Virus record (IMG/VR): IMGVR_UViG_3300020477_000990
Coordinates: 264,150-328,149 of that record
Reading direction: 5' to 3' (one strand)
DNA from: a virus
DNA length: 64,000 nucleotides
Position numbers and translations under genes: made by a program. The notes beneath the pieces were generated by a model. That model did no database searches. It was not told the origin of the DNA and saw nothing but the letters and a program-made list of their open reading frames with translations. Positions within the stretch are counted from its first letter, which is position 1, and each line of letters begins with the position of its first letter. Below are positions 11,202 through 58,783 of this stretch, piece after piece.

Positions 11202-11225
11202 CAATAATCTAAATTATGTTATTAT
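11198..11225 (+). promoter_or_regulatory. Sigma70-type promoter, leaderless configuration
   Basis: TTGACA at 11198-11203, 16-nt spacer, TATTAT at 11220-11225, ending 6 nt before the bS21 ATG. Confidence 0.7.
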
Positions 11226-11231
11226 ATTATT

Positions 11232-22885: not shown

Positions 22886-22895
22886 GGAGATGAAT

Positions 22896-23480
22896 ATGAA
22901 TTTAGTACCAATGGTTGTTGAACAATCATCAAGAGGTGAAAGAAGTTATGATATTTTTTCACGTTTATTAAAAGAGAGAATTATTTTTATAACAGGACCA
23001 ATTAACGATACTGTAGCAAGTTTAGTTTGTGCCCAGTTATTATTTTTAGAATCCGAGTCATCAGAAAAAGATATCTATATGTATATTAATTCACCAGGTG
23101 GATCAGTTACATCAGGTTTGGCTATGTATGACACTATGCAATATGTTAAACCAGATATTTCAACAGTAAGTATTGGATTATCAGCAAGTGCTGGTTCTTT
23201 ATTATTAATGGCAGGAACAAAAGGAAAAAGAATTTCGTTACCTCATAGTAAAATAATGATACACCAACCATCTGCAGGTTTTTCAGGACAAGCTACAGAT
23301 ATAGAAATTCATGCTAAAGATATATTAGACACTAAAAAACGTTTAAATGAATTATACGTAAAACATTGTGGTAAAGATCTTAAAACTGTAACTGATGCTA
23401 TGGAACGTGATAATTTTATGACACCAGAACAAGCATTAGAATTTGGGTTAATAGATAAAATCACTGATAAACGTGTTTAG
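22896..23480 (+). CDS. clpP: ClpP protease subunit
   Basis: 194 residues from the ATG at 22896, which has AAGGAG 7 nt upstream and gives the family-typical start [20 protein letters not shown]. Catalytic Ser in [11 protein letters not shown], His in [11 protein letters not shown], and an Asp near position 165. The N-terminal residues that form the axial gate are present. It may form chambers alone or mix with host ClpP, and should dock on ClpX through the IGF loop. Confidence 0.95.
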
Positions 23481-25518: not shown

Positions 25519-26628
25519 ATGTACAGATATGAAGATATACGAACAGTACATTTAGAAATCACAGCGAAATGTCAGGCCGCTTGTTTGCAATGTGATAGAA
25601 ATGTTAATGGTGGTGAAATAAATCCAAATATTTCACTTGATGAGTTATCTCTTGAAGATTGCAAAAAAATATTTCCACCTGAATTTGTAAAACAATTAGA
25701 TAGTTTGTTTATGTGTGGTAATTTAGGTGACCCAGTTATTGCACAAGATTCACTTGAAGTAATGGAATATTTACGTAGTCAAAATTCTAATATTTGGTTA
25801 AGCATGAATACAAATGCCGGCGCCAAAAAATCAGAGTGGTGGAAAGATTTAGCAAAAATACTTGGTAAGCAAGGCCATGTAATTTTTAGTTTTGATGGAT
25901 TAAAAGATACTAATCATTTATATAGGCAAAATGTTAATTGGGATATATGTATGGATTCGGCACAGGCGTTTATTGATGCAGGTGGTAGAGCAAGATGGGA
26001 TTATTTAATATTTGGACATAATCAGCATCAAGTTGAAGATGCAAAAGCATTATCAGAACGTATGGGATTTGAAAAATTTATGAGTAAAAAAACTGGTAGA
26101 TTTTTTAGTAATGTAAAAGCAAAAGGAAAAGAAGAACATCAAGGTGTAAATCGTAAAGGTAAACAAACACAAAAACTTACAAAGCCAGATGAAAAATATG
26201 TAAACAAAGCTCTTAAGAAAGAAGATTTACTTATAGAAAAATATGGATCTATGAATAATTATTATGATAAAGCACATATTAATTGTAAAGTATTAAAAGA
26301 TATGAATGTATATGTAAGTGCATCAGGACATTTGATGCCTTGTTGTTGGGTAGCAGGACAAATGTACAAGTGGTGGGAGAAGCCAGGAGAAAATCAAATT
26401 TATAGATTTATAGAGCAAGTAGGTGGACTTGATGAGCTATCAGTTTTACAACATGGTTTTAAAAAAGTTTTAGAAGGAGACTTTTTTAATAATATAAAAG
26501 CAAGTTGGAAAAAAACTTCTTGTAATGGCGGCGATGGAAAATTAAAAGTATGTTCTGTTAAATGTGGTACAGAGTTTGATCCATTTGGTGCACAATTTGA
26601 AGATAACTTCGTTACAACAGCAAGGTAA
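25519..26628 (+). CDS. Radical SAM protein, cluster gene 1
   Basis: 369 residues. Radical SAM Cys 18, 22, 25 (AKCQAACLQC), SAM-binding MCGNLGDP, and FSFDGLKDTNHLYRQNVNW, shared with the protein at 13151. C-terminal auxiliary-cluster cysteines: INCKVLKDMNVYVSASGHLMPCC and CSVKCG. A Lys-rich insertion sits at about residues 190-245. Same subgroup as 8420/9099, 13151 and the minus-strand 38440 gene. First of a run of genes that overlap or nearly touch. Confidence 0.88.
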   Translation: MYRYEDIRTVHLEITAKCQAACLQCDRNVNGGEINPNISLDELSLEDCKKIFPPEFVKQLDSLFMCGNLGDPVIAQDSLEVMEYLRSQNSNIWLSMNTNAGAKKSEWWKDLAKILGKQGHVIFSFDGLKDTNHLYRQNVNWDICMDSAQAFIDAGGRARWDYLIFGHNQHQVEDAKALSERMGFEKFMSKKTGRFFSNVKAKGKEEHQGVNRKGKQTQKLTKPDEKYVNKALKKEDLLIEKYGSMNNYYDKAHINCKVLKDMNVYVSASGHLMPCCWVAGQMYKWWEKPGENQIYRFIEQVGGLDELSVLQHGFKKVLEGDFFNNIKASWKKTSCNGGDGKLKVCSVKCGTEFDPFGAQFEDNFVTTAR

Positions 26629-26637
26629 ATATATAAA

Positions 26638-28107
26638 ATGAGCAATAATAAACTACCATCAAAAACGTTTTGTGCGTTACCGTGGATGCATTTATCAACT
26701 AGACCAGATGGAAATATGCGAGTATGTTGTACAGCTAACGCAAGTTCAGTAGGTGCAACTAATGATAAAAAGCATGGTGGACAAGTTGGTATTCTAAAAA
26801 AAGATAATGGTGTTCCTGCAAACTTAAATAATTCAGATTTAATGTCATCGTGGAATAATGATTATATGAAGAACGTTCGTTTACAAATGTTAAACGGAGA
26901 AAAACCACCAGCTTGTTTAAAATGTTTTAAAGAAGAAGATGCAGGTCATAATTCAAAACGTATGTGGGAAACTGAATATTGGATGAATAGATATTCTTTA
27001 GAAGATATGATTGGTGAAACAAAAGAAGACGGTTCTATTCCACCTAAAATTAGATATATTGATTTGCGTATGGGATCTAAATGTAATTTAAAATGTATTA
27101 TGTGTAGTCCACATGATTCTTCATTATGGGTCAAAGATTGGTTAGACGTATATCCTACAATTAAAAATCCACAGCTAAAGCAAACAATGGGTTGGGATAA
27201 TAAAGGTAAAGTACATGGCGCTGGTTATAACTGGCATAAAAATAACGAAGTATTTTGGAAGCAGTTATATGAGCAAATACCTCATATGTATCAATTATAT
27301 TTTGCAGGCGGTGAGTCTACAATTATAGAAGAACATTATACATTATTAGAAGAAGTTATTAGAAGAGGATATGCTCCTAAAATAGAATTACGTTATAATT
27401 CAAATGGTGTTGAAATGCCAGATAGATTATTTGAATTATGGAGTCATTTTAAAAGAGTGCGTTTTCATTATAGTGTAGATTCAATTGAAGAAATGAATCG
27501 TTATATACGTTTTCCTGCAGATTGGGATAATACAGTTAAACAATTTCATTTGTTAGATAATACAGAAGATAAAGTAGAAGTAACAATTGCCTGTGCAGTA
27601 CAGGCTTTGAATATACATTATATTCCAGATTTTATTAAATGGAAATGGAAACAAAATTTTAAAAAAATAAATGTATGGCCATTTGGAGCAGGTATGTTAA
27701 ATTATCACTTTGTATATTGGCCTGGGCAATTAAATGTAAAAGCATTGCCACAATGGATGAAAAATAAAACAAAAGAAAAATATGAAGCATTTTATCCTTG
27801 GTTATTAGAAAATTGGAAACTATCCGGTGCACCAAGTAAAGAAGCATTTATGGAAGCAAGTTACGGTATTAAAAGATTAAAAGGAATGATTCAATTTATG
27901 ATGTCAGAAGATTGGTCAAGACGTATGCCAGAATTTAGAGAATATATTACAAAATTTGATAAGCAACGTGGCACAGATTTTGCTAAAACTTTTCCGGATA
28001 TGGCTGATATGTTAGATGAGTCATTAGATTATAGTGTTAAACCAATAACCGGTGAAAGTATTGATGAAAAAACAGAGAAGGAATTAGAAGATGGCGGAAC
28101 AATCTGA
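26638..28107 (+). CDS. Radical SAM protein with N-terminal twitch/SPASM-like cysteines, cluster gene 2
   Basis: 489 residues. It starts with KTFCALPWMHLSTRPDGNMR and VCC, a cysteine module that normally lies at the C-terminus of SPASM proteins, then CLKCF. The radical SAM motif GSKCNLKCIMCSP is at about 145-157, followed by YFAGGESTI (SAM-binding GGE) and YNSNGVE. The long C-terminal part includes aromatic/basic helices. Architecture shared with 29739 and 31006. Probably modifies a peptide or small molecule; no precursor is evident. Confidence 0.88.
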   Translation: MSNNKLPSKTFCALPWMHLSTRPDGNMRVCCTANASSVGATNDKKHGGQVGILKKDNGVPANLNNSDLMSSWNNDYMKNVRLQMLNGEKPPACLKCFKEEDAGHNSKRMWETEYWMNRYSLEDMIGETKEDGSIPPKIRYIDLRMGSKCNLKCIMCSPHDSSLWVKDWLDVYPTIKNPQLKQTMGWDNKGKVHGAGYNWHKNNEVFWKQLYEQIPHMYQLYFAGGESTIIEEHYTLLEEVIRRGYAPKIELRYNSNGVEMPDRLFELWSHFKRVRFHYSVDSIEEMNRYIRFPADWDNTVKQFHLLDNTEDKVEVTIACAVQALNIHYIPDFIKWKWKQNFKKINVWPFGAGMLNYHFVYWPGQLNVKALPQWMKNKTKEKYEAFYPWLLENWKLSGAPSKEAFMEASYGIKRLKGMIQFMMSEDWSRRMPEFREYITKFDKQRGTDFAKTFPDMADMLDESLDYSVKPITGESIDEKTEKELEDGGTI

Positions 28108-28657: not shown

Positions 28658-29739
28658 TGGTTAATAATTACAATAAATTTTTTAGTGATACGTCTCTAGT
28701 AAAGTGCTATTCAGAATTTCAACGATTAGAAGAAGTAATTGTTGGTAGTGCATATAAACCAGATTGCTTTGATAGTAGTGAGCAATTTAGCCAAGAAGCC
28801 AAAGACTTATTAAAAAGAGTGTTTACAGAAACAGCAGAAGATTTAGAAGTACTTGTTAGTATATTAAAAGCTGAAGGCATAATAGTACAACGTCCTAAAG
28901 TAATGCAAGATCCACTTGCAAAATATAATATGGGAGAATTTGATATTGAATATGCAAACCAACCTTTGCAACCAAGAGATATATTAGGATTTTATGGTAA
29001 TAAAATTATTGAAGCATACACAAAAGACAGAACAAGATATTTTGAAAATTGGTGTTCAAGAGATATATTAAAGCAATATTATTTGCGTGGTGCAGAGTGG
29101 ATAGCAATGCCACCACCACAATTAAATAAAAAAACATACCAAGATTATTATCAAAATAGTGAAGTACTTTTTCATAATGCTAACTTAATTAAATGTGGTA
29201 AAGATATATTCCATTCACAATCACATCAAAAAGATCCTGTAAAAGGTAAAGGTACAGAACAAGGTTTAGAATGGTATAAAAAGCAATTGCCAGAATTTAC
29301 ATTTAATGAAATACCTGTTGGAGGTCATGCTGATGGTAAAATTGCATTAATTAAACCAGGTTTATTAGTAACTTGGAAAAAAGAATGGATACCAGAAAAG
29401 TTAAAATCATGGGATTGTATTATAACAGAATCAGGAACAAAGTTTCCAGAAGATTTTAAAAAAACACGTAAAGAACATTTTTATAAAGATTATATTGAAA
29501 AATGGTTATCGCATTGGATTGGTTATGTTGATGAAACAGTATTTGATGTTAATATGTTGAGTATATCAGAAGATAAAGTTATTTGTACAGGAACAGATAA
29601 AGAAGTATTTGCAAAATTAGAACAACACGGAGTAACACCTATATATTGGAAATTTAGACATCAATATTTTTGGGATGGCGGAGTACATTGTTTAACAGCA
29701 GATGTAAGACGTAAAGGAGAACAGGAAAATTATTTCTAA
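28657..29739 (+). CDS. Amidinotransferase (AGAT-like, arginine-deiminase superfamily)
   Basis: 360 residues. Landmarks of glycine/inosamine amidinotransferases: the N-terminal LEEVIVGSAYKPD, the His element PVGGHADGKIALIKP, and the catalytic Cys in WDGGVHCLTADVRRKG at the C-terminus. They transfer the amidino group of arginine to an amine, giving ornithine. The product may be a guanidino compound used or modified by the flanking radical SAM enzymes. Single-base overlaps with both neighbours indicate one operon. Confidence 0.88.
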   Translation: MVNNYNKFFSDTSLVKCYSEFQRLEEVIVGSAYKPDCFDSSEQFSQEAKDLLKRVFTETAEDLEVLVSILKAEGIIVQRPKVMQDPLAKYNMGEFDIEYANQPLQPRDILGFYGNKIIEAYTKDRTRYFENWCSRDILKQYYLRGAEWIAMPPPQLNKKTYQDYYQNSEVLFHNANLIKCGKDIFHSQSHQKDPVKGKGTEQGLEWYKKQLPEFTFNEIPVGGHADGKIALIKPGLLVTWKKEWIPEKLKSWDCIITESGTKFPEDFKKTRKEHFYKDYIEKWLSHWIGYVDETVFDVNMLSISEDKVICTGTDKEVFAKLEQHGVTPIYWKFRHQYFWDGGVHCLTADVRRKGEQENYF

Positions 29740-31022
29740 TGGACAATCAAGCATGGAAGAAACGTGATTGGGATTGGCACAAAACAATCACTAAAAAATG
29801 TGTAGCACCTTGGCATAGTTTAACTATCGAATGGGATGGTGAAGTATATGCTGATGCTGTGGCGTTTAAACCATATGGAAGTATATATGAAAATACTTTA
29901 ACTGAATTATGGAATTCTCCAAAAGCAGTTAATCTTCGTAAATCATGGAGCAAAGGATTGCCAGATAATATAATATGTGCTAGTTGTATAAAGAAAGAAG
30001 AAACAGTAGGTAGTTCTAGACGACAATACTTTTATAGAAATTTGCCATCTGAATTATTAAAAACAGCAACATATGATCCAGAGCAAAAACCTAATATATG
30101 GTATTTAGAAATTAACTCATCAAATAAATGTAATTTAAAATGTAGAATGTGTAATGGGCAAGTTTCAAGTACTTGGATTAAAGAAGAAACACAATTAGCA
30201 AAAATATCTCCTAGTTGGATGCCAAAAAGAAAAAATGGAAAATACTCTAGAGTTGATTTTGATGTTATTAAAAATGTTTTAGAAAAAAGAGAATATTTTA
30301 AAGATTTGCAATTTTTAAAGTTAACAGGCGGTGAGCCATTAATGGAAGAACAAAATTATCAATTAATGGAACAATTTATTGAATGGGATATTGCAAAAAA
30401 TGTTATGCTTGATATTAACACTAACGGAACATTTATGAATGAAAGATTAATAAACATTGCTAAACATTTTAAATTAGTTAAGTTACATATAAGTTTAGAA
30501 GGAACAGGAGAGTTATATCAATATATACGTGGTGGAGAAAACTTTACTTTAGATCAATTAGAAACAAATATAATTGAATTCAACAAGTTACCAAATACAG
30601 TAATAATTTATACTGTTACAGTACAAATATATAATATTTTTAATTTATCAGATATATGGAATTGGTATTTAAAAATAAGAAAACCAACTAATGAAATTTA
30701 TTTTAAAAATGTTGTAGTTAATCCTCCACATTTAAATTTTCAAATATTACCTAATAGTTTAAAGTTAGAAGCATATGAAATAATGAAACAAGCAGATTTA
30801 CCACAAGGTGAGTATTGGGAATTAGATGATTTTAGTCAAGGTGATATAGGATTTAGCAATATTATGAAGAATTTACAGAATCTAAATACATATAACGAGC
30901 AACGTTTAAAAGAGTTTGTCCAGTTTACACGTGATATTGATACTATAAGAAAAACGGATATTAAAAAAATTGTCCCGCAATTAGCAGGATTATTTGAGGA
31001 AGTATATGAAGCAAGAGCCTAA
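29739..31022 (+). CDS. Radical SAM protein, cluster gene 3
   Basis: 427 residues. N-terminal cysteine module CVAPWHSLTIEWDGEVYADA and ICASC, then the radical SAM motif SNKCNLKCRMCNG at about 127-139, LKLTGGEPLM and DINTNGTF. Same twitch-type architecture as clusters gene 2 and 4, but the first module lacks the CC pair (YADA instead of a VCC), so an auxiliary ligand may be lost. Starts at the amidinotransferase stop. Confidence 0.86.
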   Translation: MDNQAWKKRDWDWHKTITKKCVAPWHSLTIEWDGEVYADAVAFKPYGSIYENTLTELWNSPKAVNLRKSWSKGLPDNIICASCIKKEETVGSSRRQYFYRNLPSELLKTATYDPEQKPNIWYLEINSSNKCNLKCRMCNGQVSSTWIKEETQLAKISPSWMPKRKNGKYSRVDFDVIKNVLEKREYFKDLQFLKLTGGEPLMEEQNYQLMEQFIEWDIAKNVMLDINTNGTFMNERLINIAKHFKLVKLHISLEGTGELYQYIRGGENFTLDQLETNIIEFNKLPNTVIIYTVTVQIYNIFNLSDIWNWYLKIRKPTNEIYFKNVVVNPPHLNFQILPNSLKLEAYEIMKQADLPQGEYWELDDFSQGDIGFSNIMKNLQNLNTYNEQRLKEFVQFTRDIDTIRKTDIKKIVPQLAGLFEEVYEARA

Positions 31023-32223
31023 AACATTTTGTATTTTGCCATGGATGCATTTAGCAACAAATTCTAGTGGAAATTATAGAGTATGTTGTAATTCAACTCC
31101 AGGTAAAAATTTTATTTTAGATAAAAATGGTGAGCCTTATAAAATTTATAAAGCTGATATTAAAGAAATGTGGAACTCTGAAACATATAGAAATTTACGT
31201 TTGCAACTACTTAAAGAAGAATATCCAGATATGTGTCAACGTTGCTGGAGAGAAGAAGCAAGTGATATTAAATCTGCTCGTCAAAGTTTTAACGAAGCAT
31301 ATTCACATTTTATTGATGGAGCATTATCAAATACAGATATAGAAGGTAAAGCACCATTAAAAGTAGGGTATGTTGATTTACGTTTAGGAAACTTATGTAA
31401 TTTAAAATGTCGTATGTGTAATCCATGGGCAAGTAACCAATGGACTAAAGAATGGAATAAAACAACATCATATGATGGTAAAGATATACCAGAAGATGAA
31501 CGTACGAGATTAGAGCATATGGATTGGCCCACAAATGAAAAAACGTGGGAAAACTTAATGCCAATTATAGATTCAGTAGAAGAAATTTACTTAACAGGTG
31601 GAGAACCTACATTAGCATTAGAACAATATAAGTTATTTGATAAATGTATTGAATTAGACAAAGCAAAAGATATTGTATTAAAGTATAATACTAATTTAAC
31701 TAATATACCACCTAAAATGATTGAGTATTGGAAAAACTTTAAAAAGATTAAGATTAATGCTTCAATAGATGGGTTTGATGAGCTTAATAGATATATTAGG
31801 TATCCAACAAATTGGAAGTCAGTTGATAAAAATCTTAAAATATTTCATGAAATAGAAAAAGAAGGTAAAATGAGAGTGCAGATTCATACTACTGTACAAT
31901 TATATAATATACTTGATATAACAGATTTATTTGAATATGTTGATCAGTTTGGTTATTTTCCGTATTTAAATATATTAGATCATCCAGATTACTTAAATGT
32001 AAGAGTGTTGCCATTGCACCTTAAAGAATGTGTAGCAGAAGAATTACAAAAGTATATTGATAAGCCAAAAGTAAAAGGGTTAATAACTTATATGATGGAC
32101 GAAGATTGGTCACAGCATACAGATAAATTTATTGAATATACTAATTGGCTAGATAAATCACGTAAGCAAAATGTTCTTGATATTGTTCCTGGATTAGAAG
32201 ACATAATAAATTTAAAAAAATAA
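31006..32223 (+). CDS. Radical SAM protein, cluster gene 4
   Basis: 405 residues from the ATG at 31006, which has GAGGAAG upstream; it overlaps gene 3 by 17 nt. N-terminal CILPWMHLATNSSGNYR with VCC, then CQRCW, radical SAM GNLCNLKCRMCNP, YLTGGEPTLA. Very like gene 2 in order of motifs, so the two may act on sequential or similar sites. Closes the cluster; a new promoter follows. Confidence 0.87.
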   Translation: MKQEPKTFCILPWMHLATNSSGNYRVCCNSTPGKNFILDKNGEPYKIYKADIKEMWNSETYRNLRLQLLKEEYPDMCQRCWREEASDIKSARQSFNEAYSHFIDGALSNTDIEGKAPLKVGYVDLRLGNLCNLKCRMCNPWASNQWTKEWNKTTSYDGKDIPEDERTRLEHMDWPTNEKTWENLMPIIDSVEEIYLTGGEPTLALEQYKLFDKCIELDKAKDIVLKYNTNLTNIPPKMIEYWKNFKKIKINASIDGFDELNRYIRYPTNWKSVDKNLKIFHEIEKEGKMRVQIHTTVQLYNILDITDLFEYVDQFGYFPYLNILDHPDYLNVRVLPLHLKECVAEELQKYIDKPKVKGLITYMMDEDWSQHTDKFIEYTNWLDKSRKQNVLDIVPGLEDIINLKK

Positions 32224-38076: not shown

Positions 38077-38443
38077 TAAACTTACACAATGGGGATCTTT
38101 AATCGGTGTTATTTGTGCTATCGGTGGTGGATTTTATGCTTGGGGTGAATTTAATACAAGATTAGCAAATATTGAAAGTAGACCAGTTGCTGACATGACA
38201 TCTATAACTGAAGATGTAGCAAATTTAAAAGTAGATATGGTTGATAGAATTACTGCTATTGAAGATAAACTTGAAGCACAATCAGATACAGAATTAGGTA
38301 CAATCCAAGCCGACATTAGTGAAATAAAAGACTCACTAGTTAAAGCATTAAAAGATATCGAGATTCAAAGTAAAGTAAATGAATTGCAAGATCAAAAAAT
38401 TGAACAAGTAAGATTAAAAGCAACAAATCCATTAGCAAATTAA
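38063..38443 (+). CDS. Small membrane-anchored coiled-coil protein (126 aa)
   Basis: 126 residues: a membrane helix at about 10-28 (WGSLIGVICAIGGGFYAW), then a coiled coil (VANLKVDMVDRITAIEDKLEAQ and LVKALKDIEIQSK). Overlaps the exported repeat protein by 14 nt, suggesting a three-gene envelope unit. Similar in layout to spanin or membrane-tethering proteins but without a lipobox. Converges with the minus-strand gene. Confidence 0.6.
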   Translation: MNVINKLTQWGSLIGVICAIGGGFYAWGEFNTRLANIESRPVADMTSITEDVANLKVDMVDRITAIEDKLEAQSDTELGTIQADISEIKDSLVKALKDIEIQSKVNELQDQKIEQVRLKATNPLAN

Positions 38444-39435
38444 ATTTCAGCGAATGTATGTTGTTTTTTTCCAAAGTGAGAACAACTCTTTTGACATCTT
38501 GACAAGAACATAGGATGGTTTTCATTCCAACTATCTTTTAGTATTTGTGAGAACCATTCATGATCTAATATATCTTGAATATCATGTTCAAGTGAATTAT
38601 TCCAATTAGAACTATATTTAGAAAATTTTTCAGACATATCATCACGTTTGTACCAATTATTATCATACAAATAACAACAAGGCCAAATTTGATAATTAGC
38701 ACCAAAGTAAATTTCACCTTCATGTATTAGTTTACATTTTATATTTAAATTTTTAGTTTCGTTTTTAATTTCAGGATGTTGATATTTTTTATTTGTTAAA
38801 GATACTTTGTTTATAACTTCTTTAGTTTTTTTATTAACTACAGTATGCGTACTTTCTTGTTTCATAGAATAACGTAGTGAAAATTTAAATCCAAGTTTAG
38901 TAGATAGTTGTTGTGCTTTTTCTATATCATCGATATTATGATCAAATGGATTATAAACCCATTGTCCTTTGCCACCAGCATCAGAATATGCAGTCATATT
39001 TTCTACAAGTTTATTCCAATTAACACCAACTCTATAAATGTGATTTGTATTTTCAAAGCCATCTACACAAAAACGCATATCTAATTTTGGATTGTCTTTG
39101 CTAATTGCTCCTAGTTCTGCCCAATATTCTTTTGAACGCAATCCACCGTTAGTAGAAACAATTATAACCTTTGGATTCATAGATAATGTGTATTCACATA
39201 TTTCTATAAATTCTTGATTTACTAATGGATCGCCTAAAACACCACAATAAAAAATTTCTTTGTTTTCTATATATTCTTTTGAGTGTAATACTTTTTTATA
39301 GTTTTCTAGAGTAATATCAGCTAATTCTACATCTGGGTTAGTTTCCCCTTTTAATGTTCTAGCACACCCAGGACATCTAGCATTACATCTAGTGGTTAAT
39401 TCTACTTCTATTTTCTTAAGATTTTGTACGAGCAT
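38440..39435 (-). CDS. Radical SAM protein on the minus strand
   Basis: 331 residues. Radical SAM Cys 17, 21, 24 (TRCNARCPGC), FYCGVLGDP, STNGGLR, FCVDGFENTNHIYRVGVNW and C-terminal IKCKLIHEGEIYFGANYQIW, then CC. Clearly a paralogue of 13151, 25519 and the split 8420/9099 gene. The only minus-strand gene in 64 kb; its 3' end overlaps the plus-strand gene by 4 nt. It has its own late promoter. Confidence 0.87.
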   Translation of the reverse strand: MLVQNLKKIEVELTTRCNARCPGCARTLKGETNPDVELADITLENYKKVLHSKEYIENKEIFYCGVLGDPLVNQEFIEICEYTLSMNPKVIIVSTNGGLRSKEYWAELGAISKDNPKLDMRFCVDGFENTNHIYRVGVNWNKLVENMTAYSDAGGKGQWVYNPFDHNIDDIEKAQQLSTKLGFKFSLRYSMKQESTHTVVNKKTKEVINKVSLTNKKYQHPEIKNETKNLNIKCKLIHEGEIYFGANYQIWPCCYLYDNNWYKRDDMSEKFSKYSSNWNNSLEHDIQDILDHEWFSQILKDSWNENHPMFLSRCQKSCSHFGKKQHTFAEI

Positions 39436-50904: not shown

Positions 50905-50965
50905 GTTTTTAATTTTCTCTTGACAGTATAAATATGTATGTATATACATAGATTAAGGAATTGTC

Positions 50966-51352
50966 ATGACAGATAAAACATTTAAAGATTATTTGAAGCT
51001 AGTTGAAGACGGTACTCCAGAGCCAAGTGTAACACCACATGATGATCTTGGTTTAGCAGACGAGTTAGTTAATATAGCACAAAATGATCCAGATTTATAT
51101 AATAGACAGTATTTTCCAATAATCAAGAACTTATTGCGTAAAAGAGTAAAAGGAGTATATGATCATAATTTAGCTATTAAATTATGGCGTTACTTAATTG
51201 ACAATGTTGCTAAACATGATGCAGGGCATATGGCTAGACATAAATGGTCAGGTGTAGTTAGAAATTTAGCCGCAAAAGAACTTGCAGATGAAGAACTTGG
51301 TAATATGGAAAATGGTGAATATGATCATATTGATTTAAAACGAGGAGCATAA
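50966..51352 (+). CDS. Conserved hypothetical phage protein (128 aa)
   Basis: 128 residues, helical, with LYNRQYFPIIKNLLRKRVKGVYDHNLAIKLW in parts (VYDHNLAIKLW) and HDAGHMARHKWSG. Shape and position match small conserved proteins of T4-like cyanophages. AAGGAA ribosome-binding site; TTGACA at 50923-50928 may be its -35. Confidence 0.6.
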   Translation: MTDKTFKDYLKLVEDGTPEPSVTPHDDLGLADELVNIAQNDPDLYNRQYFPIIKNLLRKRVKGVYDHNLAIKLWRYLIDNVAKHDAGHMARHKWSGVVRNLAAKELADEELGNMENGEYDHIDLKRGA

Positions 51353-51354
51353 TA

Positions 51355-51498
51355 ATGGCGATAAAGAGTGTAGAATCAATTATCGATCATAAGCCTAAAC
51401 GCACTAGTCAAGGTGGCAAAAAACCAAAGATGTCATCAATGAATAAAGATAAAAGAAGAACATATAAGAAATATAGAGGGCAAGGTAGAGGTAAATGA
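51355..51498 (+). CDS. Small basic peptide (47 aa)
   Basis: 47 residues, Lys/Arg/Gly-rich (SVESIIDHKPKRTSQGG, then KDKRRTYKKYRGQGRGK). It lies in the gap between two genes, preceded by GAGGAG, and its stop overlaps the next ATG (ATGA). Probably binds nucleic acid; small basic peptides of this kind occur in T4-like cyanophages. Confidence 0.65.
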   Translation: MAIKSVESIIDHKPKRTSQGGKKPKMSSMNKDKRRTYKKYRGQGRGK

Positions 51499-54400
51499 AA
51501 TTAAACGAACTTATACAACCTAAAGGGACAAAAGCGTCATTTACATTTGGTAGATTTAATCCACCAACTAAAGGTCATTCTCATCTTTTAAATGTAGTTA
51601 AGAAAGCGGCAGGAACAGGTGATCATTATGTTTTCACAGGAAGAACAAATGATAAAGATCGTAATCCATTAAGATATGAAGATAAAATTACATTAATGAG
51701 AGCAATGTTCCCAACAATTAATATTGTAGATGATCCAAATGTAAAAAATCCTTGGCAGGCACTTGAAGAGTTAGGTAAGCATTATGATGATGTTACTTTA
51801 GTTGTTGGTTCGGATAGGCAACAAGATTTCCAATCTCAAATGAGACCATATATGAAAGAGTTTGGTATTAAAAATTTTCAAGTAATTAGTTCAGGAGAAC
51901 GTGATGCAGACTCAACTGATGTGCAAGGTATTTCGGCAACTAAAGCTAGAGCATTTGCTAGAGTAGGAGACTTTAAATCATTTTCACAAACAGTAGATGG
52001 TGGCGAAACACTTAAAAAAGAATTATATAATAAAGTAAGACAAGGTATGGGAGTTACTGAAAGTAAAAAGCCAGTACCACCTAAAAAACCAAATCCAGTT
52101 GCAAAACAATTAACAGATCCAAAATTTAGACCACAAACAGTTAAAGATAAGAAAAAAGAAATTGATAAAGGATATGTTAAGCACAAAGGCAAGGCGTATG
52201 ATATTAATGAAGCATATATTATGGATTTAAATCAAAACCAAGATTTACTTGTATTAAGAGTTAAAGACACAGATAAAAAAGGACATATAGAAGTTAGAGG
52301 TAAAAAGAATTATGAAACAGATGGGTATGATCCAAAAGATCCATTGCACAGAGTTTTAGATCAATTAGATGGAGCAACAGTTTCAAGATTATATTCAGAT
52401 GAAAAAGTAGTTTTAAATCCAAAAAATCCTAGAACAGCACCAACAATAAAAAAAGCACAAGAACTTATGAAAGAACAAGAGCCAAGTAAGCCAATTGTTT
52501 ATGTTGACATGGACGGCGTATTAGCAAACTTCTTTGAAGAGTATGCTAAATTGGCAGGAGTTAAATCAGGAAACTATAAAGATATTCCACCAGCTAAAAC
52601 AGACCCTACATTAAATAAAATGGTAGGTACAGATTTTTTTAATAGATTACCAAAGTTTCCAACAGCAGATAAATTATTGCAATTAGTTACATCGATGTTT
52701 GGTAGCTATTCAATTTTATCAGCACCATTAAGAGGTGATCATCAAAATAGTACAGCACAAAAACATAAATGGATACAACGTGAACTTGCTATTAAGCCAG
52801 ATAATGTTATTATAGTTGGAAGAAAAGATTCTTATGCTACACAGGCAGATGGCACACCTAATATATTAATTGATGATAGAGGAAGAAATGTTGAAGCATG
52901 GAGAAATAGAGGTGGGCTTGGAGTTAAGTATCAAGCTGATGAAGATCCTTTATCTAAAGTAGAACAAGCACTTACACAATTTAAAGGACAGTTTACTTTG
53001 AAAGAATGGGGCGGGCTAATTGTTAAGGGCATAAATACCACAGCAGATGTAGGTATGGATGCAATTAAAAAGCAGTCAGGAAAATTAGGATTTAAAGTTG
53101 ATAAACAAGGAAAGCCACCAATAATGAATACAAAAGGTCAAGCAGTAGTTAAACGTATGCAAGAGCAGTTAATTAAAATTAACGGTTCAAATAAAGATTT
53201 AACATTACAGCAACAAATAGATTTATTAGAAATTACTAAAGGTATTAAAAATATCGTTAAAGAAAGAAAAGCAAAAAGAGTTAAAAAAGCATCATCTAAT
53301 GCATCAGAAGTTCCATATCAAAATGATGCAGGAACAATGAGTTTACTTACACATCCTGGTACAGAGCTTTGGCAAAAAATGAAAGCAACATCTAAGCCAG
53401 GAACAGAAGAATGGTTTAAAACTTGGAGAACATTATCATACTTAACTAAAGGTAGAAAGAATCATTATATGTTACCTATTAAAGAAGAATTAGAAAAACT
53501 TTTAGTTAAGTATAAAATTATTAAAGAAAGTGATGTAGTTGATTTACAACAAGCAATTGCTAAAAGAGTTTCATCAGTAACTGATCCAGCACTTTTAAAT
53601 AAAATAGCAAGTATGTTACGTAGAAGTAATATTGGTAACATTTCAAGAATGGCATTTAAGCAAGACGAAGATGCGGCAAAATTTATTAATAGGTTATCAG
53701 AAATAATTGTAGGAATTGAAGTTCCAATAAATGATAAAATTGCGTTCCTTAGAAAATTTGGAAGATCTAATTTTATTAAACCTGAAGTACTATTTGATAA
53801 TAGTGGTGCAGTACATTCAATGGATGATTGGTGGGAAGGAACTGGATTTGCAACAACTATGTTTAAGTTAATGATAAACGATCCACAGCTTCAAGGAAAA
53901 TCAGCAGGTGAATCTGGACCAGGTGAAGTTGCAATAGCTTGTTTCCATAAAAAGATTTCAGTAGGTTCTGATCCATCAGCAGGATACGATTTAAAATGGG
54001 GTAATCAAGAAATTGAAGTTAAAACAAAAGCATCAGAAAAATCTAGTTCAGGTGGCGGACGTTGGACAGCATATGATGGTGCTCCATTAGAAACTTATTT
54101 ACAAAGTGGTCAAAGTTTATTAGATCCAGAAAAAGTTCCTGCAGGTGTTAGAGCAACAAAATCATCACGTGCTGGAACACAAATAAGTTTTGCAGAAGTT
54201 TTAAATAATCCACAATACTTAAAAGATCCTAATACACCGTTAACTCAACAACAACAAAAAGAAATTTTTGCAAAAGTATTAAAACAAGCATATCAAAGTG
54301 CACCTAATGAAATTATTAATACAGCATTAGCAAATTATCCTAACGTAACAGATAAAGATATTGCACAGGCGGCATTTGCTAGTTATAGAGTTAAGCAAGG

Positions 54401-54557
54401 ATTTCAGTCAATGCTATTAATGAAGGCATCAGGTGGCGGAATTAGTACAATACACTTTAGTGAATTAGATAAAGGAATTGATAATTTTAAAGTTAATGGT
54501 CCGTATGTACGTGGACAAAAGCAACGTGGAATGGATGTTCAAGCAACATTAAGGTAA
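51495..54557 (+). CDS. NMNAT-like / HAD / nuclease-like fusion protein
   Basis: 1020 residues. Residues 14-175: nucleotidyltransferase of the NMNAT/FMN-adenylyl type, FGRFNPPTKGHSH at 18-30 (TxGH variant of HxGH) and GISATKARAF (ISSTxxR). Residues 330-500: HAD phosphatase-like, VDMDGVLAN with D338 and D340. Residues about 790-930: GYDLKWGNQEIEVKTK gives D832, E841 and K843, a PD-(D/E)xK nuclease-like set. The first residues (MKLNELIQPKG) match the capsid-targeting-like start found on its neighbours. NMNAT activity would fit NadE and Prs. An injected multi-enzyme head protein is the working model. Confidence 0.8.
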   Translation: MKLNELIQPKGTKASFTFGRFNPPTKGHSHLLNVVKKAAGTGDHYVFTGRTNDKDRNPLRYEDKITLMRAMFPTINIVDDPNVKNPWQALEELGKHYDDVTLVVGSDRQQDFQSQMRPYMKEFGIKNFQVISSGERDADSTDVQGISATKARAFARVGDFKSFSQTVDGGETLKKELYNKVRQGMGVTESKKPVPPKKPNPVAKQLTDPKFRPQTVKDKKKEIDKGYVKHKGKAYDINEAYIMDLNQNQDLLVLRVKDTDKKGHIEVRGKKNYETDGYDPKDPLHRVLDQLDGATVSRLYSDEKVVLNPKNPRTAPTIKKAQELMKEQEPSKPIVYVDMDGVLANFFEEYAKLAGVKSGNYKDIPPAKTDPTLNKMVGTDFFNRLPKFPTADKLLQLVTSMFGSYSILSAPLRGDHQNSTAQKHKWIQRELAIKPDNVIIVGRKDSYATQADGTPNILIDDRGRNVEAWRNRGGLGVKYQADEDPLSKVEQALTQFKGQFTLKEWGGLIVKGINTTADVGMDAIKKQSGKLGFKVDKQGKPPIMNTKGQAVVKRMQEQLIKINGSNKDLTLQQQIDLLEITKGIKNIVKERKAKRVKKASSNASEVPYQNDAGTMSLLTHPGTELWQKMKATSKPGTEEWFKTWRTLSYLTKGRKNHYMLPIKEELEKLLVKYKIIKESDVVDLQQAIAKRVSSVTDPALLNKIASMLRRSNIGNISRMAFKQDEDAAKFINRLSEIIVGIEVPINDKIAFLRKFGRSNFIKPEVLFDNSGAVHSMDDWWEGTGFATTMFKLMINDPQLQGKSAGESGPGEVAIACFHKKISVGSDPSAGYDLKWGNQEIEVKTKASEKSSSGGGRWTAYDGAPLETYLQSGQSLLDPEKVPAGVRATKSSRAGTQISFAEVLNNPQYLKDPNTPLTQQQQKEIFAKVLKQAYQSAPNEIINTALANYPNVTDKDIAQAAFASYRVKQGFQSMLLMKASGGGISTIHFSELDKGIDNFKVNGPYVRGQKQRGMDVQATLR

Positions 54558-54560
54558 ATA
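54553..54560 (+). promoter_or_regulatory. Late promoter variant, leaderless spacing
   Basis: GGTAAATA ends 5 nt before the ATG at 54566, overlapping the stop of the preceding gene. Confidence 0.4.
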
Positions 54561-54565
54561 TTATT

Positions 54566-54862
54566 ATGCGTATATTAGAAATTATAAGTGAAAATGACAG
54601 ACGTGATTTTATGAAACGTTTGGGTAAAACAGCGGCGGCTACAGCTGGTGCTTTAGCTTTAGGATCATTTGCACTTCCATCAAAAGCATGGCCTAGTGAA
54701 TTACCTGATAATTTTAACTTTATGGATGAGTTTTTAAGTGATAAAGTTTTAAATGATCCAAAATATAAAGAATTTAAATTAAATGGTGAAAAGCTTCTTG
54801 ATATGTTAAAGAATATAGAAAAAAATAAGTTAAAAAAACAGGATAAAGGCATAGACGTTTAA
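54566..54862 (+). CDS. Small protein with CTS-like start and Tat-like signal
   Basis: 98 residues. MRILEIISE (I-S-E suits gp21 cleavage) is followed by DRRDFMKRLGKTAAATAGAL and an Ala-rich hydrophobic stretch ending PSKAWP: a twin-arginine motif RRxFxK with signal-peptide features. The rest is a small helical domain. If the head protease cut after IISE, the Tat-like segment would be exposed at the new N-terminus. Function unknown. Confidence 0.65.
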   Translation: MRILEIISENDRRDFMKRLGKTAAATAGALALGSFALPSKAWPSELPDNFNFMDEFLSDKVLNDPKYKEFKLNGEKLLDMLKNIEKNKLKKQDKGIDV

Positions 54863-55114
54863 ATGAAAATTGGTGATATTATTACTGAAGAAGCTACAGT
54901 AGGATCTACTATGGCTGGTAATTTTGCGGCATTGGCATTTCCTATGACTCCTGGTACTACACATGATCAGGCTATTAAAGCAGTAGATCCATTCGGTAAA
55001 ATATTCAAAAATGCTAAAAAGAAACGTAAAGATATATGGAAAATGGGTTACAGCCCAGATGCTTTAGCATATAGGACTAAAGTGAAAGATATCTATCCTA
55101 TTTTAAAACGTTAA
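54863..55114 (+). CDS. Small CTS-like-start protein (83 aa)
   Basis: 83 residues starting MKIGDIITEEATVGSTMAGN, again with an I-T-E near residues 7-9. The rest has a basic middle (KNAKKKRKDIWKMG). Starts one base after the stop of the gene before. Likely another packaged small protein. Confidence 0.6.
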   Translation: MKIGDIITEEATVGSTMAGNFAALAFPMTPGTTHDQAIKAVDPFGKIFKNAKKKRKDIWKMGYSPDALAYRTKVKDIYPILKR

Positions 55115-55145
55115 AAAAGATAAATATTTGTAAGGTACACATATT

Positions 55146-55655
55146 ATGAAATTAAACGAGCTATTTAAACCAGAACAATCATCGTCATTACAAGATTTTA
55201 AAGATTATTATGACAATGCTACTCAATCTATGATTACTAGAGTAAAAGCTGGTGAAAATTATCATGAAGTAATTAATCAATTAGCACGAGAGTTTGCATC
55301 ACAACATAGTGATAGTTACGAAATGTTTGATTTAATGGCTGACGGTTTAAAAAAGCGACATTGGGAAATGTTTTGGGATGAAAAAGAAGAAAAATCAGAA
55401 CCAGAAACACCTGTTGCAATAGTAGTACAACCAGATGAAAAAGAAGTTAAAGAATATGATGGTCCAGATGAAACCCAAGATAATCAAGGATATACAGATA
55501 AGGAAATTAAAATGGCATTTGGTATTTTAAATGATCCTAGATATAAGCAAGGTAATTATTCAGGAGCATACGCGGCCATTGAAAAAATTGCTAAAGGTTT
55601 AGCAAGTCATCCAAGTGTAGCAAACGCATTAAGACGAGCAAACGAGTCGGAGTAA
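55146..55655 (+). CDS. Hypothetical CTS-like-start protein (169 aa)
   Basis: 169 residues starting MKLNELFKPEQSSSLQDFKD, like the 1020-aa protein. The middle carries a helical domain (YHEVINQLAREFASQHSDSY) and an acidic linker (EEKSEPETPVA), then a C-terminal helical pair (KMAFGILNDPRYKQGNYSGAYAAI in parts). GATAAATA upstream may be a late promoter. Function unknown. Confidence 0.65.
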   Translation: MKLNELFKPEQSSSLQDFKDYYDNATQSMITRVKAGENYHEVINQLAREFASQHSDSYEMFDLMADGLKKRHWEMFWDEKEEKSEPETPVAIVVQPDEKEVKEYDGPDETQDNQGYTDKEIKMAFGILNDPRYKQGNYSGAYAAIEKIAKGLASHPSVANALRRANESE

Positions 55656-55659
55656 CGCC

Positions 55660-58134
55660 ATGCGTATCCACGAAGTTGCACCCCCAGGAAGAGAAAAGCA
55701 AGTAAAGAAACTTAAAAAGAAGTTTGATGATCCATCGGCGGCTTACGCCATTGCTTGGGCTCAACATAACAAACATGGTAAGCCTAAAAAAGAAACAAAG
55801 TATGCAAACGTTCCAGGAAGAGAATACGATGCAGATGATAGAGCAGAAGCAAAATTATGGTCTTTGCAAGATCGTAAATCAGCACTTTTAAAAAAATTAG
55901 ATAGAGTTGCAGGCGAAGGTGGCAAAGTTAATATTAATGATCCAATATATAAAGAATTACAAGCAGTTAAAAAAGCAATAGGAAATTTCAAAAAGCAAGG
56001 AATTGGCGAAGATAAAATTCCAAACGATATGCCTGGTATGGTTGGTGATAGTGCTTGGTATAAAAAAACAGGTCAATTAGTTAGAATAGTCGATTACACT
56101 CAAGATGGTAAAGATGGAATTTACACAATTTCATTTGGTGATGGCAGAGGTGAAATGGATGTATTGGTGCATGATTTAGAATTTATAGATGATACAACAT
56201 ATCAAGATTTACCAGACTATGGTGATACAGAAGATAATATGTCTGATATAGAAGCAGATGCAGATACACTAGCATCAGCTGGAATGGGTAGCGATGAAGA
56301 TTATGGCTACTATGGTGATAATGAATCAGTTGATCCTATTAGAAGTGATAGAGGTGCTAAAGAAGAATTAGCAAAAGAAATTTATTACAATGGATCTAGT
56401 GCAAAACATTATCAAAAAATGTATCCTACTTGGGAAGACTTTATGAACTCAGAAGACTTCGAAGAAGAAAATATGAGATTATGGAATAAGTTTGGTGAAA
56501 GTAAAAATGTTGAAATGTGTCCAGAAGCTTGTTGCGGTGTACCAGTAACAGAGTGTTCATGTGGTTCAGATTGTAAACATTGTGATTGTAATGCAAAAAA
56601 TAATGAAGTAAAAGAAGATTTAAAAAAATCATTAAATGAAAGAATGCCTGCTTCAGTTATTAAACATAAACAAAAACTTTCTTTTATGACTGATAAAGAA
56701 TTAGCAGATAGATTTAAAGATTTTGATGAAACAAGATTACGTCAAATGGCATGGAGACATGGCTATGGCAAAATGAGTTCACACTATTGGGATAGAGTAC
56801 AAGCTGGTAAAAACGAATCAGTAACTAATGAAGACCAAACAACAGTTGACGTTAAAGCAATATTAGACAAGCACGGTATTAAAAGTACATACGATATTGA
56901 ATATGGTTCAGATGCCTTTAGTGATTTATTTGATTATTTTTCAAGTGATCCTGATGAAATGCCATACGGTGTTCAAAAAGCAAGAACAGGAATGCCAGAT
57001 GAATGGATTGCAAATAGACTTATAGACTTAGGTTTACTTAAAGAAGCACCATTCCGAAGAAGATTTGCAACAAAAAGTAAAAATCCATTTAGCGGAACAC
57101 AAAAAGCATTAAACACATTAGGGTCAATGTTTGGTTCAAGAAAAGCACAAGGTAGATTAAACACAGGCGTTGAAGCAAATAAAATTGCAAAAGATTGGGA
57201 AGATTATACTTCAGGAGATACAGCAAGACAAATAAATAAAAACTTTAATGGATTTTTAGGTAGCATTGGAGGTAGTGGCAATCCTGAAACATCAGCAAAA
57301 TGGTTTCAAAAAAATCATAAAATAACAATTCCACCAGCTGACTATCAAAAAACTTTTAAACAAGATGGTACTCCACAAGAAAGAGATACAGTATTCAATA
57401 TTATAAAAAAGAGTTCATTAGACTCAGATAGTATTCAGACTTGGTTTAAAAATAATCATGGTATGGTACTTACGCAACCTGATGTAAATCAATTATTAGC
57501 AAATCCAAAAACAGCAATTATAGATTTTGTAAAAAGAAAAGAAGCAGGACAAATGGGTCCAAAAGCTGATGCAACAAAGCCAGAAACTAAACCAGATGCA
57601 CAAGGAGATTTATTTACAGGTGATGATCAAGCTGATCCAACATTAGCACAAATTAAAAAATTAAATCCAGATGCTTCACAAAAATCTGTGAAAGCATTAG
57701 ATAAACTTAAACCAGATGCACAAGGAAAAATGGCACCGTTAAATCCAGAAGAAGAAAAAGAATTAGCACCAATATTACAAAAGATAGGTGCGGCATTAAC
57801 TGATCCTGCTAAAAGAGCCAAGTTAGTAAATATGATGACGTCAGGTAAGTATAGTGATTTTAAAGATTTTACATCAATATTGAGTGAATCAATTAGTAGA
57901 GAAGAATTATCTAAATTGGATTATTTGGCTAGACAAGGACTAGTTCCAAGTTCTAAAGTATCAAGATTTAAGACAGCCATGCGTACACTTGCTAAAGGTA
58001 AAGACTTATCAATAACATATAAAAATGATGTAGTAGATGTAGTTGTTAAATTAGCTGGTATTATTACTAAACCTGGTGTAATGCAAATGGTTAGAAGGGG
58101 ACTAAATAAAGATAAGGGTAAAGGTAAAAAGTAA
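55660..58134 (+). CDS. Large CTS-like-start protein (824 aa)
   Basis: 824 residues starting MRIHEVAPPGREKQVKKLKK, then DDPSAAYAIAWAQHNKHGKP, a phrase found in cyanophage proteins. A Cys cluster sits near residues 286-310 (CPEACCGVPVTECSCGSDC, CKHCDC), which could bind zinc. The C-terminal half is helical with PKADATKPETKPDAQGD repeats and a final KDKGKGKK tail. Probably a head-associated or injected protein; no enzymatic domain recognised. Confidence 0.65.
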   Translation: MRIHEVAPPGREKQVKKLKKKFDDPSAAYAIAWAQHNKHGKPKKETKYANVPGREYDADDRAEAKLWSLQDRKSALLKKLDRVAGEGGKVNINDPIYKELQAVKKAIGNFKKQGIGEDKIPNDMPGMVGDSAWYKKTGQLVRIVDYTQDGKDGIYTISFGDGRGEMDVLVHDLEFIDDTTYQDLPDYGDTEDNMSDIEADADTLASAGMGSDEDYGYYGDNESVDPIRSDRGAKEELAKEIYYNGSSAKHYQKMYPTWEDFMNSEDFEEENMRLWNKFGESKNVEMCPEACCGVPVTECSCGSDCKHCDCNAKNNEVKEDLKKSLNERMPASVIKHKQKLSFMTDKELADRFKDFDETRLRQMAWRHGYGKMSSHYWDRVQAGKNESVTNEDQTTVDVKAILDKHGIKSTYDIEYGSDAFSDLFDYFSSDPDEMPYGVQKARTGMPDEWIANRLIDLGLLKEAPFRRRFATKSKNPFSGTQKALNTLGSMFGSRKAQGRLNTGVEANKIAKDWEDYTSGDTARQINKNFNGFLGSIGGSGNPETSAKWFQKNHKITIPPADYQKTFKQDGTPQERDTVFNIIKKSSLDSDSIQTWFKNNHGMVLTQPDVNQLLANPKTAIIDFVKRKEAGQMGPKADATKPETKPDAQGDLFTGDDQADPTLAQIKKLNPDASQKSVKALDKLKPDAQGKMAPLNPEEEKELAPILQKIGAALTDPAKRAKLVNMMTSGKYSDFKDFTSILSESISREELSKLDYLARQGLVPSSKVSRFKTAMRTLAKGKDLSITYKNDVVDVVVKLAGIITKPGVMQMVRRGLNKDKGKGKK

Positions 58135-58394
58135 TGAAAGATCAAATTATAATGTTACTAATAGGTATTTTAATTGCGTTAGGCGGTTGGAACCTTACCC
58201 AAACTTTTAGTTTATCAACTACTCAAGCAGTTATTGATGATAAAGTTGATAAATTAGAAAGAAGCGTCGAGAAATTGCAAGATCAAATGGATGATATGCA
58301 AAAAATGGATGAAGAGATTGTTGAACAACATGAAGATTTGTTTAGACAATTACAAGAAGGCAATACAGCACCATCAACAGGATATAATTACTAA
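58134..58394 (+). CDS. Small membrane-anchored coiled-coil protein (86 aa)
   Basis: 86 residues: a membrane helix at about 4-21 (IIMLLIGILIALGGWNL) then a coiled coil (VDKLERSVEKLQDQMDDMQ). Overlaps the previous stop by 1 base and shares a base with the next start. Similar layout to 38063. Confidence 0.6.
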   Translation: MKDQIIMLLIGILIALGGWNLTQTFSLSTTQAVIDDKVDKLERSVEKLQDQMDDMQKMDEEIVEQHEDLFRQLQEGNTAPSTGYNY

Positions 58395-58783
58395 TGAAAA
58401 TACATGATATTATAAATGAAGACAATGTTATTGATCTTAAAGGCCCACAAGGTAATGCTTATTTCCTTTTAGGCACAGCTAAAAAATTAGCAAAAGATTT
58501 AAATCTTGATTACGACAAAATTCAAAAAGAAATGACTGCTTGTAATTACGATAATTTAGTAGATGTTTTTAAAAAATACTTTGGTGAATATGTTGATGTT
58601 AGAGAAAATGAACTTGGTGTGCCACGTATGAACAAGTATAACATTTATACAACAAAAAGCAAAGATGGTGATTTTCAGGCCTGGCAAGGTGAAAAACATC
58701 TTGGAACTTTTAAAACGATTCAAGATTTAAATAAATTTTGGGATCACGCAATAAACAGCGGAAAAATTAAACCTCAAGAGTAA
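58394..58783 (+). CDS. Hypothetical CTS-like-start protein (129 aa)
   Basis: 129 residues starting MKIHDIINEDNVIDLKGPQGN, another capsid-targeting-like start with I-N-E. The middle (NYDNLVDVFKKYFGEYVDV) is helical; the C-terminal DFQAWQGEKHLGTFKTIQDL resembles small alpha/beta domains. Function unknown. Confidence 0.6.
   Translation: MKIHDIINEDNVIDLKGPQGNAYFLLGTAKKLAKDLNLDYDKIQKEMTACNYDNLVDVFKKYFGEYVDVRENELGVPRMNKYNIYTTKSKDGDFQAWQGEKHLGTFKTIQDLNKFWDHAINSGKIKPQE

Follow-up and report, generated by a model that had tools for sequence, protein, structure and literature searches.

The window considered here (64,000 nucleotides, bases 264150-328149 of the 328,149-base IMG/VR virus record IMGVR_UViG_3300020477_000990) carries at 51495-58783 a row of genes, most of which encode proteins opening with the same short N-terminal motif, M[KR][LI]x[ED][ILV]. 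This start, called the tag in what follows, is proposed to address the proteins to the head of a jumbo phage, where a protease of the T4 gp21 family would cut them. The row consists of seven genes (window coordinates; a slash after E marks the predicted cut):

51495..54557, plus strand: tagged multi-module protein of 1020 residues (MKLNELI) with Pfam and PHROG matches
54566..54862, plus strand: tagged protein of 98 residues, MRILEIISE/NDRRDFMKRLGK..., with a twin-arginine signal at residues 11-42 (TIGR01409)
54863..55114, plus strand: tagged protein of 83 residues, MKIGDIITE/EATVGSTMAGNFAAL, whose body starts like the N-terminal arm of the major capsid protein behind its predicted cleavage site
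55146..55655, plus strand: tagged protein of 169 residues (MKLNELF), scanned with Pfam and PHROG, function unknown
55660..58134, plus strand: tagged multi-module protein of 824 residues (MRIHEVA), scanned with Pfam and PHROG, function unknown
58134..58394, plus strand: membrane-anchored coiled-coil protein of 86 residues, i-spanin-like (best PHROG match phrog_739, Rz-like spanin, 6e-7), the single untagged gene inside the row
58394..58783, plus strand: tagged protein of 129 residues, MKIHDIINE/DN (phrog_1933, 9e-8, unknown function)

All six starts noticed in the original prediction are present (at 51495, 54566, 54863, 55146, 55660 and 58394), and each contains at least one [LI]xE: four have it at residues 3-5 (LNE, ILE, LNE and IHE) and three at residues 7-9 (ISE, ITE and INE). 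Sought across the whole record, the strict form of the motif (^M[KR][LI].[ED][ILV]) opens 9 of 439 predicted genes, six in this row and the others at record positions 157550 (minus strand), 203534 and 254094; at internal methionines it occurs once in 2014. (Genes were called by a heuristic of our own, combining a codon model with start scoring, and not by a published gene caller.) Six tagged genes among seven consecutive ones never arose when the nine flags were shuffled 100,000 times, the highest count being five; because the motif was derived from these same six genes, this tests clustering and not motif discovery. A PHROG comparison allowing E up to 1 links none of the six tagged proteins to a head family.

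Pfam identifies on the record a portal gene (PF07230, 2.3e-108), a prohead protease of the gp21 family (PF03420 Peptidase_S77, 1.7e-26) and a major capsid protein, Gp23 (PF07068, 1.5e-97). The protein in the scaffold position is a member of phrog_10922 and has matches in 59 phage records, which include PA5oct (44% identity), Atu_ph07, 121Q and RaK2. With this T4-type head block and these scaffold relatives the phage is therefore, as judged from sequence, a jumbo myovirus of the T4 superfamily. Immediately after the portal gene, and before that of the protease, come two further tagged genes, at record 203534 (strict motif) and 203938 (MRYRELIKE, a wider form of the motif). Since the same tag stands on unrelated proteins in a phage that encodes a gp21-family protease, it is named here a capsid-targeting-type tag of the T4 superfamily; that it targets proteins to the head is predicted with a probability of roughly 0.8.

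Contigs carrying longer tagged rows were found by probing IMG/VR with the 824-, 98- and 83-residue proteins. The 1020-residue protein found no relative there, and the 824-residue protein has relatives on three IMG/VR contigs and none among named phages. Tag, site and joint counts cover eight contigs (L019, L020, L027, L030, L031, L032, L039 and L040) and the focal record; L021, L026 and L029 (like L020) and L038 and L041 (like L039 and L040) were left out as near-duplicates, L024, L025, L028 and L033-L037 as repeat contigs, and L022 and L023 as having no clear row. A broad form of the tag, which admits likely false positives such as the 496-residue protein at record 285544, opens 66 of the 682 proteins in this set, and these fall into 37 families when grouped at 50% mutual coverage. 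By the same broad pattern the row of L020 holds ten tagged genes. The eight contigs were located via row proteins, and the frequency of the tag on them is therefore not a random sample; the comparison of E with D and the shifted-position control that follow are independent of how the contigs were picked. Related sequences are not independent of one another, so that p-values serve as guides. One tagged row protein (L019 5999-6697) resembles a PAP2-type phosphatase by eye.

A gp21-type site stands just behind the tag. The pattern [LIVF]xE with its E at residues 7-16 is found in 50/66 tagged and 122/616 untagged proteins, and in 9 of the 15 tagged proteins of the focal record alone. With D replacing E the pattern is not enriched (5/66 tagged vs 95/616 untagged), and when the tagged proteins are read 25 residues further in, the E and D forms occur in 4/64 and 7/64, respectively. 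Counting one representative per family gives 25/37 tagged vs 88/463 untagged for E (p 1.3e-9) and 4/37 vs 72/463 for D. At position 5, where the pattern itself required E or D, 27 of the 37 family representatives have E and 10 have D. Since both are allowed there and E is strongly preferred behind the tag, position 5 is better read as part of the tag, and the cut is likely to fall further in. What was originally said of [LI]xE at residues 3-5 or 7-9 thus holds as to its presence, and the exchange of E for D at position 5 speaks against residues 3-5 as the main cleavage site. According to the accessible part of PMC9026906, L/I-x-E is the gp21 motif, residues 4 and 7 of the T4 sequence serve targeting and residues 8 and 10 processing, and D at position 10 stops processing and leaves targeting intact. 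The E/D exchange at position 5, together with the preference for E at the site, would fit this division of labor.

The site can also be followed within families. MSFxAG proteins have a spacer that varies by at most four residues, and IQE, INE, LLE, LTE or IKE directly precedes SMSF in 5/5. (The structure model of this family has a moderate predicted local distance difference test score, pLDDT, of 64.6 and has no counterpart among solved structures at a threshold of E 0.001.) ATAG-type proteins have [ILV]xE directly before the body in 9/9, and a 66-residue head protein has [LIV]xE before its body at 21/21 loci (20 contigs, one counted twice), the site being kept in those loci where the tag is shorter by one or two residues. 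Behind LxE, the major capsid proteins of PA5oct, 121Q, Atu_ph07 and the focal phage carry an arm that the ATAG body (EATAGATxSGNIA) resembles; this LxE is placed like the site of T4 gp23. Cleavage of the tagged proteins by the prohead protease is predicted, and is considered quite probable.

For PA5oct, a distant relative, 93 of the 445 genes in the record bear a mark of detection by electrospray tandem mass spectrometry (ESI-MS/MS). The strict motif, as first worded, opens 5/93 detected vs 2/352 other proteins (p 0.0053, one-sided), and a slightly wider motif, narrowed after that list had been viewed, opens 7/93 vs 2/352 (p 3.6e-4); for genes of at least 60 codons in the 44-264 kb region the figures are 7/89 detected vs 1/162 other (p 0.0034). 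Control patterns with other charges are rare in PA5oct and not enriched among its detected proteins. Among the detected proteins is MKINDIITE/GYYNPADD (EST35_0150), whose gene stands between those of portal and protease; it corresponds to the MRYRELIKE/NYFPADD protein of the focal phage.

Cyanophages provide a second set of virion data. PMC9602691 reports, in the part available, 45 proteins in S-SCSM1 virions with NMNAT among them, and the available text of PMC10665884 places a cytidylyltransferase among S-CREM2 virion proteins and cites S-CBWM1 and S-SZBM1. The N-terminus of the S-SCSM1 NMNAT-like enzyme is MKSFLQFLKE/A, a T4-type start, and relatives of this enzyme have starts of the same type, VKSFLEFITE/A (Sf-FS3) and VKSFGQFLTE/A (S-SSM7). 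The 1020-residue protein of the window is homologous to the cyanophage enzyme over ~190 residues and bears the other type of tag. A T4-type spelling, MKTFKDYLAE/A, also opens a protein of the focal phage (record 226795-227406; L012 17795-18406) with matches to phrog_2667 (annotated as "internal head protein"; E 0.0014 over residues 1-36) and phrog_14802. The jumbo-type and T4-type starts may be read as one address in two spellings. The PA5oct counterpart (by eye) of the record 226795 protein begins MKSFRDYYDA and is marked as detected by mass spectrometry.

Several observations weigh against packaging as the meaning of the tag. Three of the six window proteins (51495, 55146 and 55660) are without an [LIVF]xE that has its E at residues 7-16. 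Apart from the hindsight that entered the wider PA5oct motif, the first and broadest tag pattern reaches only p 0.021 in that phage (7/93 vs 8/352), and the generic [LIVF]xE at residues 7-16 is not enriched among its detected proteins (18/93 vs 68/352, p 1.0), so that the signal there lies in the tag and not in the site. The detected set includes likely carry-over enzymes (ribonucleotide reductase, FtsH and ClpP), and detection is therefore no proof of packaging. Carry-over is also what the authors of PMC9602691, in the part available, consider possible for the NMNAT of S-SCSM1 virions, and the available text of PMC9964418, which reports 14 proteins detected for S-CREM1, names no NMNAT. Of the two annotated S-SCSM1 genes with the T4-type start, only one is marked as a virion protein; the jumbo-type start is on a single gene, which is unmarked. 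On balance, the claim that the block encodes packaged proteins is well, if indirectly, supported as far as head packaging goes, by the shared tag, the enrichment of the site, the gp21-family protease, the mass-spectrometric enrichment in PA5oct and, in the accessible reports, the NMNAT of cyanophage virions; the parts that concern injection and effector function stay conditional.

Sites of the same kind are predicted at three joints inside the two largest row proteins:

52059..52061, plus strand: codon of E189 (1020-residue protein), predicted joint VTE/SKK, preceding the DUF7230-like module and aligning with LFE/NKK behind the tag of L020 7403
53004..53006, plus strand: codon of E504 (1020-residue protein), predicted joint LKE/WGG, preceding the GG..VKGI module
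56638..56640, plus strand: codon of E327, predicted joint LNE/RMPAS, inside the 824-residue protein

Within the 1020-residue protein (phrog_3041, 6.1e-46), residues 17-153 are NMNAT/cytidylyltransferase-like (PF01467, 3.4e-7), residues 198-237 DUF7230-like (23.0 bits, below the cut-off of 27) and residues 332-473 match the 5'-nucleotidase NT5C (PF06941, 8.7e-9); a GG..VKGI module, shared with other proteins, starts at residue 505. The DUF7230-like basic module recurs in other tagged proteins (L020 7403-9514 and L032 6961-9327). The C-terminal part shows by eye an E..D..ExK pattern and was considered as a PD-(D/E)xK nuclease, which is not claimed; a search gave it no phage relative, its sole match among solved structures is weak (E 0.02) and lies off that pattern, and its AlphaFold model, from two sequences, is uninformative (pLDDT 34).

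Row proteins swap modules between one another. Where a module opens a tagged protein and is internal elsewhere, an aligned [LIVFM]xE stands at the joint in 19/27, compared with 10% at random positions in the same multi-module proteins; the 27 joints are related instances from ~12 modules, tallied by hand, and a binomial p should not be read literally. Eight of the ~12 modules show the site at each of their joints, ENFADG shows it in 1/5 (E being retained and the hydrophobic residue missing in 4/5) and the others in none. The GG..VKGI module is preceded by LKE in the window and by VNE, LME, VNE, LTE and MVE in five relatives, and opens a separate tagged gene in L039; a WSKKYK-type module is preceded by LQE, VRE and LLE. 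The E327 joint of the 824-residue protein reads VNE/RMPAS in L019 and LGE/RMPGS behind the tag of a separate L020 gene (the automatic joint test scored this boundary at VKE, eight residues before the E327 site). Because the residues around the joint E vary while the pattern persists, the joints fit selection for cutting. These internal sites suggest that the multi-module row proteins may be head polyproteins.

The 98-residue protein carries an export signal directly behind its tag. Its twin-arginine (Tat) signal scores 24.7 bits with TIGR01409 against a curated cut-off of 16.7 and directly follows MRILEIISE; relatives in L020 and L019 score 19.3 and 25.9 bits (three proteins scanned, all above 16.7). 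The signal of the window protein begins at residue 11, and that of L019 12280-13098 occupies residues 186-211 of a tagged protein of 272 residues, directly behind KIAE (an IAE site), where prior cleavage would be needed. The alignment of six rows shows no variation in the twin arginines, F, K, the A/WP step or the E9 that precedes the signal; a weak spot lies two residues before E, where four rows have I and the other two, L020 and L026, have T (TTE). A cut by the head protease would expose a Tat signal usable only in the next host. L030 10001-10285 likewise has a twin-arginine signal directly behind the head tag. An origin of the Tat protein as a host gene was rejected: a pattern scan of 84,980 genomes gave two loci, in one Rickettsiales metagenome-assembled genome, with the gene order of the L030 phage. 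This genome, MED657, carries the same type of phage row on contigs L085 and L086, and therefore seems to contain phage contigs.

A different box, [LIVM][KR]xLAG, has 13 occurrences where 1.07 would be expected and 200 shuffles gave at most 4: eight times at or near the starts of row proteins, three times at protein ends and twice internally. LKxLAG ends the scaffold protein of the focal phage, the scaffolds of 14 related loci and those of PA5oct and Atu_ph07, and a variant is found in 121Q. The box is a lead toward a possible second address. A strictly terminal location was considered and rejected: 11/13 occurrences are terminal in nine sources, but 5/6 matches to a looser pattern in PA5oct are internal. 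The box lies at the scaffold C-terminus (L011 15980-17092) and at the starts of L019 11645, L020 9515, L027 9354, L030 9106, L032 9330, L032 10424 and L039 8381. Row proteins that open with LKxLAG are without the main tag, and several run on into I/V-x-E.

The row can be pictured as head cargo of a T4-superfamily jumbo phage in the following way. The short N-terminal tag would bind the scaffold core and draw the protein into the prohead, as in T4 internal proteins; the gp21-family protease would then cut after [LIV]xE just behind the tag, and would also cut the large proteins at their module joints, releasing mature parts within the head; the released parts would exit with the DNA at infection. 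As cargo, the 1020-residue protein could act in NAD or nucleotide metabolism and the 98-residue protein could be exported to the periplasm. Core binding, actual cleavage, packaging in the focal phage, injection and the role of each cargo are what we infer. Injection of the tagged proteins with the DNA is somewhat favored. A more far-reaching version, in which one tag packs multi-module cargo, the particle delivers separate enzymes, and the 98-residue protein is exported right after injection (perhaps excluding competing phages), would require that polyproteins are cut at [LIVM]xE joints, that the cut unmasks Tat export in the next host and that LKxLAG recruits further cargo; taken jointly, these steps are tentative and rather doubtful.

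Tagged proteins might instead reach the head as structural or core components that are retained or destroyed there and never injected. One of them lies between portal and protease, which we take to be the position of core proteins in the T4 gene order. T4 core proteins are cleaved and mostly lost from the head (PMC9026906, accessible part). This fate is judged unlikely, if deserving of attention, in view of the enzymes of no obvious structural role and the export signal in the row, and of the delivery of the NMNAT-like enzyme that is proposed in the available texts of PMC9602691 and PMC10665884. An address other than the head, for example the membrane or a replication compartment, with the acidic site incidental, would be compatible with a tag that is short and alternates charged and aliphatic residues, and the model of one family has residues 3-11 helical, at very low confidence. 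It is made quite improbable by the preference for E and not D at the site, by the enrichment of the tag among PA5oct proteins detected by mass spectrometry, by the tagged genes within the head block and by the T4-type start of the homologous cyanophage enzyme.

Explanations of the shared start that dispense with any address fare worse. ATGAAA starts arise easily in AT-rich phages, and the likeness might stem from chance, AT-rich start regions or translation signals; the clustering of the genes, the count at internal methionines, the enrichment of E and not D, and the control patterns of other charge, rare and unenriched in PA5oct, led to the rejection of this idea, which retains almost no likelihood. 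That tagged proteins are paralogues inheriting their start from one ancestor draws on the shuffling of modules between row proteins. Common descent of whole tagged proteins was likewise rejected and is given very little credence, the tag preceding different bodies in 37 families.

Ahead of the row of putative head cargo lie three further features:

50927..50934, plus strand: TATAAATA, a weak T4-late-promoter-like box 31 nucleotides upstream of the row-opening gene
50966..51352, plus strand: protein of 128 residues with N-terminus MTDKTFKDYLKLVE, similar to targeting sequences of the T4 type; a candidate for the row's first member
51355..51498, plus strand: untagged basic protein of 47 residues (phrog_516, 3.8e-7, and phrog_17967, 8.5e-8, both of unknown function)

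Boxes of this kind number 10 in the window against 17.6 expected, which is no enrichment, and a similar spacing is seen upstream of the portal gene (L011 11735). The L030 counterpart of the 128-residue protein begins, by eye, MRAKEFILE/A. Residues 12-67 of the 129-residue protein at the other end of the row are present in Melnitz phages. Elsewhere in the window, genes of translation, chaperone and protease type are suggested by eye at 1858-3927, 4690-5112, 9376-10647, 10644-11564, 15104-16996, 18959-19282 and 22869-23480 (the likenesses are to elongation factor G, L11, ClpX, IF-3, L20, DnaK, ClpS and ClpP), and related proteins with cysteine motifs, radical-SAM-like by eye, are encoded at 8420-9383, 13151-14203, 25519-28107, 29739-32223 and 38440-39435.

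If the head-cargo reading is true, the tag would allow the cargo of marine and jumbo T4-superfamily phages, most of it functionally uncharacterized, to be listed from sequence alone; the pieces set free could be predicted from the joint sites; and the combination of tag and export signal would give phages a novel means of affecting the host envelope within minutes of the start of infection. The cargo list, the released pieces and the action on the envelope are all open to ordinary virion proteomics. Among the papers brought up by full-text searches of the open PMC library, no title or abstract opening describes such a tag for cyanophages or PA5oct-like jumbo phages, head polyproteins cut at joints by the prohead protease or a Tat signal behind a targeting sequence. 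PMC9026906, in its accessible part, suggests the T4 sequence as a general means of protein loading in T4-like phages.

The closest comparison is with the T4 internal head proteins (IPI-III; Alt), which share the short tag on unrelated proteins, the [LI]xE about ten residues in (for the row's kind of tag, in 25 of 37 families and three of the window's six) and the gp21-family protease. The tags of the row differ from theirs in letters and are mostly one residue shorter, the runs of tagged genes are longer, the cargo is larger and multi-domain, sites are predicted at internal joints, and one cargo has a twin-arginine signal. PA5oct (Arenbergviridae) has a related scaffold, the same tag and, between its portal and protease genes, the same short tagged protein, but gives no tblastn match for the 824- and 129-residue proteins, nor for the 1020-residue protein among the best 40 of 563 matching records. 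The NMNAT-like enzyme of cyanophage virions (S-SCSM1 and S-CREM2) is homologous in its enzyme domain; unlike it, the window protein has another tag, a fused nucleotidase and further modules.

Two other systems are comparable in part, as described in the accessible portions of the papers. The ejection proteins of phiKZ and SPN3US are cargo cut after glutamate by a gp21 homologue, among many head proteins (PMC5694885, PMC9026906), but their propeptides are mostly far longer (several exceed 100 residues) and the phiKZ motif is S/A-x-E. Polyvalent proteins (Iyer et al. 2017, PMC5512222) are multi-domain, proposed to be packaged and injected, and polyprotein-like according to the authors. An embedded peptidase is reported for part of that class; a Pfam scan (E up to 1) of the 1020- and 824-residue proteins detected none. 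Polyvalent proteins would be released by their own proposed embedded peptidases, whereas the cargo of the row would be cut in trans by the head protease.

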